Source of the DNA: an uncultured Bacilli bacterium | Lineage (GTDB): Bacteria; Bacillota_I; Bacilli_A; RF39; UBA660 | DNA: 41,996 bases | Reading direction: 5' to 3' | NCBI GenBank assembly: GCA_944358505.1 | Contig: CALVRG010000024.1 | Location: forward strand, 1 to 41,996 | Shown here: in pieces, positions 17,650 through 21,791 of the stretch | How the letters are laid out: each line of letters starts with the position of its first letter | Position numbering within the stretch: the first letter of the stretch is position 1 | Made by a program: the position numbers and the translations under genes | Notes under the pieces: model-generated | What the model was told of the DNA's origin: nothing | What the model saw: only the letters and a program-made list of their open reading frames with translations | The model's database searches: none

Positions 17650-17682
17650 TTAAAAAGATACCATATCAAACAAAGGTATCTT
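17650..17682 (-). terminator. Terminator of the 130-aa hypothetical gene
   Basis: On the minus strand AAGATACC and GGTATCTT form an 8-bp stem (17682-17655), followed by TTTTTAATTTG. It overlaps the stop codon. The ~100 bp between this and the proS terminator is plain AT-rich DNA. Confidence 0.8.
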
Positions 17683-18073
17683 ATCTTTTAAGAGATTTTA
17701 CATAAGATTTTTTTATTTCTTTAGTATCAGAATATTTCATACAATATCTTTCAAGAAAACATAAAGCATGATTTTTTTCGACATCATTAAAATGCTTATA
17801 ATTACATTCACTAGTTAAATATCTCTCAATTGCTTCTTCAAAAGTCAAACAATCATCATATACAGGAATTGAAGGAAAAAATGCAACTTCTGCAGTCTTA
17901 CTTTTCTTTTTCTTTGAAAAAAGATTTATATTAGTTATATTATTAGATCTAATATAACTATGAATTCCAACACCATAGACATCATTAAAGTTTACTTTAT
18001 GTAACTTTTTACTTTGTGACTTTGCATAAAATATAGTAAATTTTAATGAACCATCATCAAAAGTACCTTTCAT
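17681..18073 (-). CDS. Hypothetical protein (130 aa), unrecognised
   Basis: Soluble, basic, no signal peptide. A probable beta-rich first half (LKFTIFYAKS, VNFNDVYGVGIHSYI) carries a Lys cluster (KKKKSK, residues ~54-59). The second half is helical with several Cys (CLTF, ECNY, ALCFLERYCMKY). A strong AAAGGAGGCGG and a clear promoter and terminator show it is a real monocistronic gene. I recognise no family. Confidence 0.65.
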   Translation of the reverse strand: MKGTFDDGSLKFTIFYAKSQSKKLHKVNFNDVYGVGIHSYIRSNNITNINLFSKKKKSKTAEVAFFPSIPVYDDCLTFEEAIERYLTSECNYKHFNDVEKNHALCFLERYCMKYSDTKEIKKSYVKSLKR

Positions 18074-18198: not shown

Positions 18199-18672
18199 TT
18201 AATTGTTTATTATATTTAATATTTGAATATTATAACTAATATCATCCACATTATACTTTACTTTATCTCCTACTTTCTTACCATATATAACACTACCTAA
18301 AGGGCTATTTACAGTGATAGTATTATCATCTTTACTAATAATATCCCCTACTAAAATAAATTCTTCTATTAAATTATCATCAAGAAATAAGATTTTTATT
18401 TTTTTATTTAATCCTACTAAATCATCGTTATTATCTTTCAAGATGATAATATCTTTTAGCATACTTTTCTTCTTGTTATATTTACTAAATAGTTCATGTT
18501 CTTTATGCATAGCTTCTTCATAAGCAAAATTATCATGCCATCCATCTCCATAAGTATCTTCACTTGCATATAGACTCATTAATTTGGCATTATCATCTAT
18601 TTCTTTTTTTATATCTTCTAGACTCTTTAAATAATTTTCATATCCTTTTCTATCTAAATATATCTTACTCAT
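18199..18672 (-). CDS. GreA/GreB-family transcription factor (divergent paralogue)
   Basis: 157 aa. An N-terminal helical hairpin (residues ~1-75) is followed by a C-terminal FKBP-like Gre domain (ISKDDNTITVNSPLGSVIYG, VGDKVKY). Gre factors insert the coiled coil into the RNA polymerase secondary channel and trigger transcript cleavage with acidic tip residues. Here the tip reads GDGWHDNFAYEEA instead of the GDLSENAEY type, so one catalytic Glu position is Asp and the spacing differs. This belongs to the alternative GreA/GreB-family subgroup rather than housekeeping GreA. The gene overlaps the end of helD by 8 nt and is translationally coupled to it. Confidence 0.8.
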   Translation of the reverse strand: MSKIYLDRKGYENYLKSLEDIKKEIDDNAKLMSLYASEDTYGDGWHDNFAYEEAMHKEHELFSKYNKKKSMLKDIIILKDNNDDLVGLNKKIKILFLDDNLIEEFILVGDIISKDDNTITVNSPLGSVIYGKKVGDKVKYNVDDISYNIQILNIINN

Positions 18673-20656
18673 AAATAATAAGTTCCTCTCTTGCTCTTGT
18701 ACATGCTACATAATAAAGATACTTATCTGTTTTAAAGGCATGATCTAAATCTATAATAATAACACTATCAAACTCTAATCCTTTAGCAATATAACTTGGT
18801 ACCACTACTAAATCTTTAATAAACTTTTTACTTTCTTCACTTAACAAAGATATATCTAATTTGTTTTTCAAACTATTATAAATAACTAAAGCTTCCCTAT
18901 CTTCTTTAGTAATAATAGCAAGTGACTTATAAGTATCTTTCAATCTATTAATATCATCTATTAGATTAGACATATCATATCTTATTAAGACATCTTTATT
19001 ATTACTCTTTTTAATAGCATTAACATAATTTAAATTTAATATTTTATTAGTATATTCTATTATTTCTTTAGTAGATCTATATGTCTTTTTTAACTCTAAA
19101 TAATTACTATCATTAAATATATCTTGTAACTCTTCTAGGCTATCATACTTATGATAAGGATTAATATTTTGATTAATATCCCCTAAAATAGTAAAACTTG
19201 CTTTCTTAAACATTTCTTTAATAATTATATATTGCAAATAATTATAATCTTGGGCTTCATCTATAACTACCTGTTTAATATAATTATTATAAGGGAAGCC
19301 AAATAACTTACCTTTTATATATGATGCTAATAGAGCATCTTCATAATTAATTATTTTAGTATTTTTAATATCTAATTTATATTTAGAATAATTACTATTA
19401 AAAAAGTCTTTATATATATCTTTAATATTAAATTTAATATTTAAATTATCTTTTATTAACTTTCTAATAGAGGCTTTTCTTTTACCTTCGGATCCATAAT
19501 ATTTTAATGATAAACACTTAGCAACTTCATCAAGCCTTGAAAGTAAAGGAAATCTACTATATTTTTCTTTTAATAAATAATTGATATCATCTTTTTTGAT
19601 AGTGATTACTTTATCTAAATCTATGTCATTTATTACTTTAAAATTATTAATAAAATTATCTATATAATTATCTAAATCATTTACTATTTCCTTGCTTTGT
19701 TTATATTTAATAATATAATAATCTTCTTTATTTCCTTTGTAATATCTACTTATAAAAGATGAAAAACTTTCAATATTTTTATATTCAGTTAAAAAGTAAC
19801 TTAAATAATCACTAAAAGTAGATTCTAAAGTATTATCTTCCCCTAATTCTGGCAAAACATTAGAAATATATTCTGAAAAAATAGAGTTTGGTGAGAATAT
19901 TAAGACATTATTAGATTTTAAATTTTTAATTCTATATAGAAGAAAAGCGATTCGATGAAGTGCGACTGATGTTTTACCACTACCTGCAATACCTTGTACT
20001 ATTAAGTTTTTATCTTCTAAATTTCTAATAATCTTATTTTGTTCTGTTTGAATAGTATTAACTATATTTTTCATTTTTTCATTATCAGTAGTTGCAATTA
20101 CTTTTTGTAATAGTTCATCATCAATATTTAAAGAATTGTCAAAAATATTTTGAAGTTTTCTATTTTCTATAATATATTGTCTTTTCTTTTCTAATGTACC
20201 TTTATTTAAAATATTATCTACATAATATTTACAAGGTCCTACTTCATAATCATAAAAGATACTGCATATAGGACTTCGCCAATCATAGATAATATTGTCA
20301 TAATTTTCATCTTTTAAATAAGTTAGTGACATATAAATATTAAAAACATTATTATCACTATCTTTATATACAAAAGATGCAAAGTATGGTCTATCTTTAA
20401 TATTAGTTAAAGATTTATAATATTTCCTTTTAGAAAATATTCTTAAAGCCTCTAATTCATCATTAGTCATTACTTGATTAAATTCTGCACTATCAAATGA
20501 TGATTTATCTTGATAATTAAGTTTTCTAAAACTGATTAATTCTTCCTCTTTTAAAAATAAATCTTTACTTACACATTCTAATTCTTTGTCAAGTTTCTTT
20601 AAGATAAATTTTAATTTTTTATTTTCTTCAATCATCTCTTCTTTACTAATTGCCAT
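18665..20656 (-). CDS. helD: HelD-like superfamily 1 helicase (RNA polymerase recycling factor)
   Basis: 663 aa UvrD/Rep-family protein of the HelD type. The N-terminus is a coiled coil (~1-60) as in HelD arms that enter RNA polymerase channels. The HelD signature DWRSPICSIFYDYEVG is near residue 125. Walker A GIAGSGKTSVALHR is near 222, motif II is VIDEAQDYNYLQY, and the C-terminal motif VI is ACTRAREELIIYE. Known HelD proteins use ATP to remove stalled RNA polymerase from DNA. The start at 20656 has AAAGGAGGG upstream. It is co-transcribed with the Gre-like gene that overlaps its stop. Confidence 0.88.
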   Translation of the reverse strand: MAISKEEMIEENKKLKFILKKLDKELECVSKDLFLKEEELISFRKLNYQDKSSFDSAEFNQVMTNDELEALRIFSKRKYYKSLTNIKDRPYFASFVYKDSDNNVFNIYMSLTYLKDENYDNIIYDWRSPICSIFYDYEVGPCKYYVDNILNKGTLEKKRQYIIENRKLQNIFDNSLNIDDELLQKVIATTDNEKMKNIVNTIQTEQNKIIRNLEDKNLIVQGIAGSGKTSVALHRIAFLLYRIKNLKSNNVLIFSPNSIFSEYISNVLPELGEDNTLESTFSDYLSYFLTEYKNIESFSSFISRYYKGNKEDYYIIKYKQSKEIVNDLDNYIDNFINNFKVINDIDLDKVITIKKDDINYLLKEKYSRFPLLSRLDEVAKCLSLKYYGSEGKRKASIRKLIKDNLNIKFNIKDIYKDFFNSNYSKYKLDIKNTKIINYEDALLASYIKGKLFGFPYNNYIKQVVIDEAQDYNYLQYIIIKEMFKKASFTILGDINQNINPYHKYDSLEELQDIFNDSNYLELKKTYRSTKEIIEYTNKILNLNYVNAIKKSNNKDVLIRYDMSNLIDDINRLKDTYKSLAIITKEDREALVIYNSLKNKLDISLLSEESKKFIKDLVVVPSYIAKGLEFDSVIIIDLDHAFKTDKYLYYVACTRAREELIIYE

Positions 20657-20756: not shown

Positions 20757-20846
20757 CACGTCAGTAAGATAATAACAAATAAATTAGTTCTTGTAAATAG
20801 TTTGTATAAAATAATAGTAAAAGATGAAACTAATAAAGGTGATATT

Positions 20847-21791
20847 ATGCAAATAAATTTGGGTTATGTTGGTAATCCTATTACTCTTTTAGATATATAT
20901 TCACATAGTTTAACTTATAAAGATTATTTAAAGTATAAGGAACTAGGTAATAGGATACTAATTGATAGAATCAAATTAAATTTTAAAAATTTTGAAAATG
21001 TATTAAAATACAATTATGAAAATAAAATCCTATTTTATAGAATGACTCATACTATGTTTCCTTTACTTACGCATCCTAATATTAACATTGATTATAAAGA
21101 AGCTTTTAAAAAAGAGTTTAATTATTTAAAAAAAGTAATAAATAAATATAATCTTAGAATAGATACTCATCCCGATGAATTTTGTTTATTAAATAGTGAA
21201 AAATATGATGTCATCGTAAATAGTATAAAGATATTATCATTTCATTTGGAAATATTTAAACTGTTAGGTATTAATGGGAGATGTGTATTACATATTGGTA
21301 GTTCTAAGCCAAATAAGGATGTAGCATTAAAGAGATTTAAGGATAATTTTAATAAGTTAGATAATAAATTAAAAAAGTTAATATTACTTGAAAATGATGA
21401 TAAAACTTATACAGTTACTGATACACTTAATTTATGTGAAGAACTTTCCATACCTATGGTTTTAGATTATCATCATTATAATTGTAATCATTATAAAGAT
21501 GAAAAAATAGATAAATTATTGCCTAGAATAATTAAGACATGGGAGAATACTGGCCTAAAACCTAAAATGCATTTTTCTAATCAAAAAAGTAATAAAGAAA
21601 AAAGGAGTCATAGCATGTACTTAAACTATAACTCTTTTATTAAATTTATTAATATATTAAGTGAATTAAATACTGATATAGATATAATGATAGAAGCAAA
21701 AGGAAAAGATGAAGCATTATTAAGATTAATAAGACAATTAAAATTTTATAATGATTATAAAGTTATAGGGACAACTATTATTATACCATAA
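20847..21791 (+). CDS. uvsE: UV damage endonuclease UvsE (UVDE)
   Basis: Nicks DNA 5' to UV photoproducts and other lesions. 314 aa TIM-barrel metal enzyme. Family features: MTHTMFPLLTHP, the Asp/His-rich DTHPDEFCLL, HIGSSKPNK, LENDDKTYT and DYHHYNCNH with metal ligands, and KMHFSNQK near the end followed by KRSHS. The ATG at 20847 is chosen because AAAGGTGATATT precedes it; an in-frame start 15 codons earlier lacks such a site and adds unrelated residues. Divergent from helD. A weak promoter (TTGAAA-N18-TAATAA near 20746-20775) may serve it. Confidence 0.9.
   Translation: MQINLGYVGNPITLLDIYSHSLTYKDYLKYKELGNRILIDRIKLNFKNFENVLKYNYENKILFYRMTHTMFPLLTHPNINIDYKEAFKKEFNYLKKVINKYNLRIDTHPDEFCLLNSEKYDVIVNSIKILSFHLEIFKLLGINGRCVLHIGSSKPNKDVALKRFKDNFNKLDNKLKKLILLENDDKTYTVTDTLNLCEELSIPMVLDYHHYNCNHYKDEKIDKLLPRIIKTWENTGLKPKMHFSNQKSNKEKRSHSMYLNYNSFIKFINILSELNTDIDIMIEAKGKDEALLRLIRQLKFYNDYKVIGTTIIIP

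Follow-up and report, generated by a model that had tools for sequence, protein, structure and literature searches.

A divergent WHDN-type Gre-like gene overlaps helD and is paired with it in relatives of Candidatus Onthousia

Structures of HelD indicate that one arm of this protein and the Gre factors share the secondary channel of RNA polymerase (excerpts of PMC7749165 and PMC7749160). In the same excerpts the N-terminal region of HelD is described as resembling GreA/B (PMC7749165), HelD is said to compete, probably, with GreA-like factors, and DXX(E/D) is given as the Gre-family tip motif (both PMC7749160). For HelD of B. subtilis, an extract of PMC12802891 states that changing three acidic residues of the arm tip together (D56, D57 and E60) abolishes the rifampicin effect. 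A further helicase-like motor, UvrD/PcrA, acts jointly with Gre factors on polymerase stalled at lesions (cited in passages of PMC8655204); that system differs from ours in that the motor is another one, the Gre factors are ordinary and the two are not described as an operon pair in those passages. Nor is a Gre partner gene mentioned in the excerpts of the published HelD work, unlike the pair presented here, and a literature search on HelD-Gre, thymidylate kinase with GreA, Gfh1-type paralogues and Candidatus Onthousia found no HelD-Gre operon.

The window, by which we mean the whole stretch of 41,996 nucleotides that was analysed, comes from a group of uncultured gut bacteria whose closest named relatives are Candidatus Onthousia species. 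Its assembly (0.92 Mb in 74 contigs) is 72% complete. The features relevant to this study are as follows.

18665..20656, minus strand: helD, class I HelD RNA polymerase recycling motor of 663 aa (NF041464, phmmer, AF2/Foldseek), with secondary-channel arm helices 5-49 and 56-85, arm tip FDSAEF, Walker A AGSGKTS and DEAQD.
18199..18672, minus strand: gre-like gene, WHDN-type Gre-like protein of 157 aa (PF01272, AF2 model, PDB matches), with coiled coil 8-37/49-74, tip GDGWHDN and a C-terminal FKBP-like Gre domain with an SPLG loop.
18529..18549, minus strand: codons of the GDGWHDN tip, residues 42-48 (pattern match).
18665..18672, minus strand: 8-nt overlap ATGAGTAA of the helD stop and the gre start (read from the sequence; the same in kin).
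18683..18690, minus strand: ribosome-binding-site-like GAGAGGAA, within the 3' end of helD and ahead of the gre start (read from the sequence).
20802..21791, plus strand: uvsE, UV damage endonuclease, divergent from helD (TIGR00629, 231.9 bits).

An earlier note on this DNA had reported that a Gre gene overlaps the helD stop by 8 nt, and both open reading frames are indeed present at these coordinates. Its premise of a channel common to HelD and the Gre factors is borne out by the structures cited above, and its description of a divergent Gre protein with an altered acidic tip, GDGWHDN, agrees with the profile and alignment results given below.

The upstream gene encodes a class I HelD with a full, long secondary-channel arm and an acidic tip. 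The protein scored 438.6 bits on the NCBIfam model NF041464 (HelD_BACSU; cut-off 419), matched B. subtilis HelD (6wvk_H) at 7e-89 by phmmer, and its AF2 model (pLDDT 85.0) matched the same chain in Foldseek at 2.3e-43. The SF1 NTPase core was recognized as UvrD-helicase (PF00580, 61.6 bits), and the A-G-S-G-K-T columns 224-229 together with D466, E467, Q469 and D470 were invariant in 22 HelD rows. PADLOC returned generic UvrD-type matches for HelD and none for the Gre-like protein. Ahead of the PYF motif the window HelD has 89 residues, compared to 61-73 in the short-arm HelDs of these genomes. The arm tip FDSAEF reads as DXXE and is conserved in kin. Thus, the protein resembles class I HelD of B. 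subtilis (6wvk, 6zca) in its NF041464 score, whole-chain fold, long arm and acidic tip, and differs in length (663 aa versus 774). About 140 residues (298-435) had no sequence match and sit where the clamp arm of domain 1A, which opens the main channel, is expected; they are a candidate for this arm in a model that aligns as a whole to 6wvk_H. The tip pattern SSFDxAEF was common to the long-arm HelDs paired with a Gre gene (21 of 22; the pattern missed L086) and missing from nine unpaired long-arm HelDs; the paired proteins form one branch of the tree, so this difference is indistinguishable from shared descent.

The downstream product belongs to a divergent Gre subfamily with the Gre fold. 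It exceeded the cut-off for the C-terminal domain PF01272 (42.5 bits; cut-off 26.9) and reached none of the curated GreA/GreB cut-offs (best 61.9 of 145 bits). Its AF2 model (pLDDT 86.5) has helices at 8-37 and 49-74 followed by a beta domain, the tip being the least certain part (pLDDT ~65). Over its whole length the model matched GreA, Gfh1 and GreB (Foldseek, VIA-align), with Foldseek values of 1.6e-11 for GreA 9a7t_B, 2.4e-11 for 3aoi_X, 3.2e-10 for 2p4v and 2.7e-8 for 1grj. A weak match to B. subtilis HelD (6wvk_H, E 4.6e-4) was to be expected, given that the N-terminal region of HelD itself resembles GreA/B. Like GreA and GreB of E. coli (1grj, 2p4v), the protein has the Gre fold and length, a coiled coil plus an FKBP-like domain, the SPxG loop, and a tip that still carries G-D and an acidic residue followed by N. 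It departs from them in the tip itself and in sequence: in a tree of 91 rows, 12 canonical GreA proteins, including those of its own family, formed one side of a 100/100 branch and the window protein fell on the other.

At the tip, GDxWHDN replaces the canonical GDLSEN. In a profile alignment with canonical GreA of the same family, GD falls on GD and D47-N48 on E-N with one residue inserted, so that D43 and D47 take the places of the canonical Asp and Glu, which in E. coli GreA are D41 and E44. The tip is therefore altered, with Glu changed to Asp, yet still acidic. The signature DXX(E/D) is absent; D43-G-W-H-D47 reads D-x3-D, a spacing kept across the subfamily. Among 18 relatives (17 genomes chosen by whole-protein similarity, rows then picked by the pattern G[DN]xWHD), 12 columns were invariant and five of these lie at the tip (G42, W45, H46, D47 and N48). 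The same five were invariant in 64/64 thinned rows of a set selected by the motif, in which D43 was kept in 63/64, and P124 and G126 of the C-terminal SPxG loop in 64/64 and 62/64, respectively. This invariance, in the 18 rows and in the motif-selected 64, rules out WHDN as a random lesion of the tip.

We rejected the idea that this protein is the sole Gre factor of such genomes. The 72%-complete assembly of the window has one PF01272 match, but canonical tips were found beside the WHDN type elsewhere: among 10 genomes checked, five of them Onthousia-type, nine had at least two PF01272 matches (the exception was G682) and all 10 had a canonical GDLSEN or GDLKEN tip at the best-matching GreA locus.

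The gre frame opens with the 8 nt on which helD ends, ATGAGTAA. This overlap was identical in 22/22 Onthousia sequences (those among the best 80 of 91 matches, plus the window), and GAGAGGAA or a near variant was present at all 22 junctions. Both genes are under purifying selection, the median dN/dS being 0.139 across 153 pairs of 18 gre sequences and 0.095 across 231 pairs of 22 helD sequences; the pairing is real and maintained by selection. The two genes probably form one operon and are read from one message. A promoter scan of the window was uninformative (35 sites versus 35.8 in shuffled sequence), and the window scan found no terminator behind gre. Downstream of gre, at 17681-18073, lies an open frame of 130 aa without a family match; six Onthousia loci have a relative of it (36-43% identical), placed upstream of helD and not downstream of gre.

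Conservation of the pair was surveyed in two sets that share genomes, so the counts are not summed. Eight genomes of the same genus, including that of the window, were found among 193 of the order. Six of these carry helD and gre intact and adjacent, one (G149) has neither gene, and in one (G099) the gre next to helD is broken into two pieces. The G099 gene (locus L009, G099:C34:11095-11573, one species) is split into two reading frames, and the tip region lies between these. In public genomes the peptide pattern GD[GTN]WHDN[FP], which covers members with such tips, identified 78 distinct loci with a relative among the best 80 of 91 matches. Of these, 21 are of the Onthousia type, and in every one of them helD lies directly upstream and overlaps gre by the same 8 nt (best 80 of 91). 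Among the 17 Onthousia loci whose sequence extends 2 kb or more upstream of helD, divergent uvsE was full-length in 13, appeared as a short match in three, and was absent at L091 (best 80 of 91). It is a conserved neighbour in the genus and is not counted as a member of the pair. Its place beside helD in most loci of the genus fits a lesion-stalled polymerase, and its retention hints at a tie to that state.

Outside the genus, helD lies directly upstream of the WHDN-type gene on the same strand in 3 of 57 loci (best 80 of 91), with gaps of 8 (L088), 9 (L092) and 91 (L135). In the third (L135:1490-5909) two short-arm HelD genes stand in tandem before a Gre gene cut by the contig end. The HelD of L088 forms a 100/100 clade with the Onthousia proteins, and this clade falls within the long-arm type. 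The HelDs of L092 and L135 are of the short-arm type and sit on other branches of the tree. The paired HelDs thus occupy separate branches, which points to at least three separate pairings; these trees retain 7 of the 22 Onthousia rows, and L035, labelled unpaired in one of them, is the same gene as that of L092. A fourth candidate, L137, was rejected (its helD frame contains a stop, a gene intervenes, and the gre frame has no start).

Assuming independent loci and random gene order, the chance of at least 3 pairings in 57 is 2.2e-6 to 7.3e-4 (1 to 3 helD per genome, 1000 to 1200 genes). As a control, helD was found in 0/22 canonical greA loci (flanks of ~1.5 kb). The pairing of the WHDN-type gene with helD is therefore unlikely to be due to chance. 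Linkage is far from general, since 53 of the 57 outside loci have no helD in the available flank (best 80 of 91; six of the 57 have less than 700 nt upstream), and a Gre gene followed long-arm helD in 0 of 8 loci from other genera. With the window HelD as query, 1 or 2 genes per genome were found in 9 of 10 genomes at E<=1e-30, a threshold that may miss distant short-arm copies; G681 and G682 gave three rows each because genes matched in pieces. Both genes are present and unlinked in G685 (the genome of L087). G686 (the genome of L090) has the WHDN-type protein and no HelD match at E<=1e-30, which suggests that this Gre can work without this HelD.

The reading that we prefer, at a probability of roughly 0.4 and thus tentatively, is that the Onthousia pair are co-made factors that are not resident together in one secondary channel and that act in turn, or compete, on the stalled enzyme. 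HelD would behave as an ordinary class I motor, reaching with one arm into the secondary channel of a stalled polymerase and with the other into its main channel, and the WHDN-type protein would enter the same secondary channel with its changed tip. Because HelD occupies the same site with a Gre-like N-terminal region of its own, the two proteins would never be together on one polymerase, and mutual exclusion may be expected in this organism. Most likely the WHDN-type protein would first engage a paused or backtracked complex, where it might either aid transcript cleavage via its D-x3-D tip or hold the complex. If restart failed, HelD would presumably take over and strip the polymerase from the nucleic acid. 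A single message with overlapping stop and start would fix the ratio of HelD to Gre. In support are the conserved overlap with its GAGAGGAA-like site, the genus-wide and repeated pairing, the empty greA control, the fold matches, the retained SPxG loop, the DXXE arm tip in the HelD clade and the divergent uvsE. Against it stand the mostly unlinked WHDN-type genes, G686 and G685, the 0/8 result for long-arm HelD and the missing DXX(E/D).

Alternatively, the two genes may be neighbours without joint action. The Gre-like protein would then be a general accessory factor of transcription whose gene moves about the genome and, in Onthousia, happens to share a transcript with helD. Orphan or differently linked copies do dominate (18 of 57 loci next to a thymidylate-kinase-like gene, others elsewhere; best 80 of 91), and the spread is patchy: 27 of 386 family genomes had a match at E<=1e-20, and a few matches close to that limit could be canonical GreA proteins. 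A DNA pattern search of the class gave 6 places in 5 of 296 genomes, two of which (L062, L064) are not Gre proteins. We consider this explanation rather unlikely given the exact 8-nt overlap in 22/22 (best 80 of 91, plus the window) under strong purifying selection, the at least three separate pairings with helD, and the use of the same channel that is predicted for both proteins. A phage or plasmid origin was rejected as no match was found in plasmids or phages, and none of 17 viral contig stretches with the motif encodes a Gre relative.

The commonest neighbour outside Onthousia is the thymidylate-kinase-like gene, counted in those 18 loci at 164 bits or more, a count that leaves out three open frames at 41-47 bits (L105, L129, L131). 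By their labels the linked records are Bacilli (12), Clostridium, Bacteroidia, Chitinophagaceae, Spirochaetes, Patescibacteria and one plain 'bacterium', covering four phyla; a single syntenic cluster accounts for many of the Bacilli cases. Seven loci of one cluster have the gene adjacent to gre, as do L139 and L143, which belong to another. The 98 genomes of the family of L143 yielded one more WHDN-type gene (G737, 48% identical) with the kinase directly upstream and overlapping. All six kinases tested passed the Pfam Thymidylate_kin cut-off and all six fell below that of the dTMP kinase equivalog. The kinase-like gene was found in 0/22 canonical greA loci (flanks of ~1.5 kb). Adjacent pairs, sometimes overlapping, include L110:1721-2899, L139:5350-6486, L143:5393-6486, L145:711-1755 and, in addition to the 18 of 57, L185. 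Five loci (L106, L116, L121, L126, L130) carry two WHDN-type genes each, one of the GDGWHDN or GNGWHDN type and one of the GDNWHDN type, in a cluster with LysR-like, thymidylate-kinase-like and peptidase U32 genes. A Ham1/RdgB-type pyrophosphatase gene is directly upstream in L113:1877-3034 and L144:5367-6264. Other neighbours are peptidase U32, LysR-like, response-regulator-like and obg-like genes; the names thymidylate kinase, Ham1 and peptidase U32 come from searches, while LysR, HAD, response regulator, obg and phosphodiesterase were read from the sequence.

A broader possibility is that WHDN-type proteins make up a class of their own, hitherto undescribed, among the factors that enter the secondary channel, and that the W-H-D-N chemistry of their tip is obligatory. 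They would serve as modular partners of HelD (restart versus removal) and, in several phyla, of thymidylate-kinase-like enzymes (polymerase-nucleotide state). We regard this as unlikely. A doubtful case, and distinctly so, is that the protein acts as an antagonist of HelD, a blocker like Gfh1 that lacks cleavage activity, fills the secondary channel and shields working polymerases. The broken DXX(E/D) spacing would suit such a role, as would the competition of HelD with GreA-like factors proposed in the excerpt of PMC7749160. Gfh1 of Thermus (2etn, 2f23, 3aoi) also gave the best PDB sequence matches (1.4e-5), polymerase-bound Gfh1 was the second-ranked Foldseek match, and both tips are acidic and non-canonical. 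Structurally, however, Gfh1 fits no better than GreA (VIA-align Z 13.6 and 13.5), no WHDN is found at the Gfh1 tip in sequence alignments, and the two tip carboxylates D43 and D47 are retained at the frequencies given above, in a set chosen by this motif. Moreover, most WHDN-type copies lie far from helD, so that shielding from HelD cannot be their general role. Least probable is a factor for nucleotide quality, tied to nucleotide metabolism and clearing, for example, misincorporated or abnormal RNA 3' nucleotides, with helD as one of several stress partners: the kinase-like gene in 18/57 loci of several phyla (best 80 of 91) and G737, and the Ham1/RdgB family gene of L113 with its relative in L144, speak for it, but no such kinase gene lies near helD-gre in the 21 Onthousia loci searched (0/21, best 80 of 91), the kinases are below the dTMP kinase cut-off and many Bacilli cases are a single cluster.

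The earlier note had proposed a neighbour survey of the pair, and the pairing proved to be conserved (6/8 genomes of the genus, 21/21 Onthousia-type loci, 3/57 others among the best 80 of 91, 0/22 greA). Its interpretation was partly supported, being right about a conserved, non-chance pairing and too narrow in calling it a 'dedicated' module, given the 53/57 outside loci without helD in the available flank (best 80 of 91) and the commoner kinase-like neighbour. The larger lead is the WHDN-type subfamily, together with the genes around it. HelD and Gre factors share a polymerase channel, and a natural pair of their genes that selection maintains and that arose on at least three occasions offers a direct two-gene system for studying how a cell chooses between restart and removal of a stalled polymerase. 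The invariant WHDN tip, in turn, raises the question of what active-site chemistry a Gre factor can bring besides DXX(E/D).
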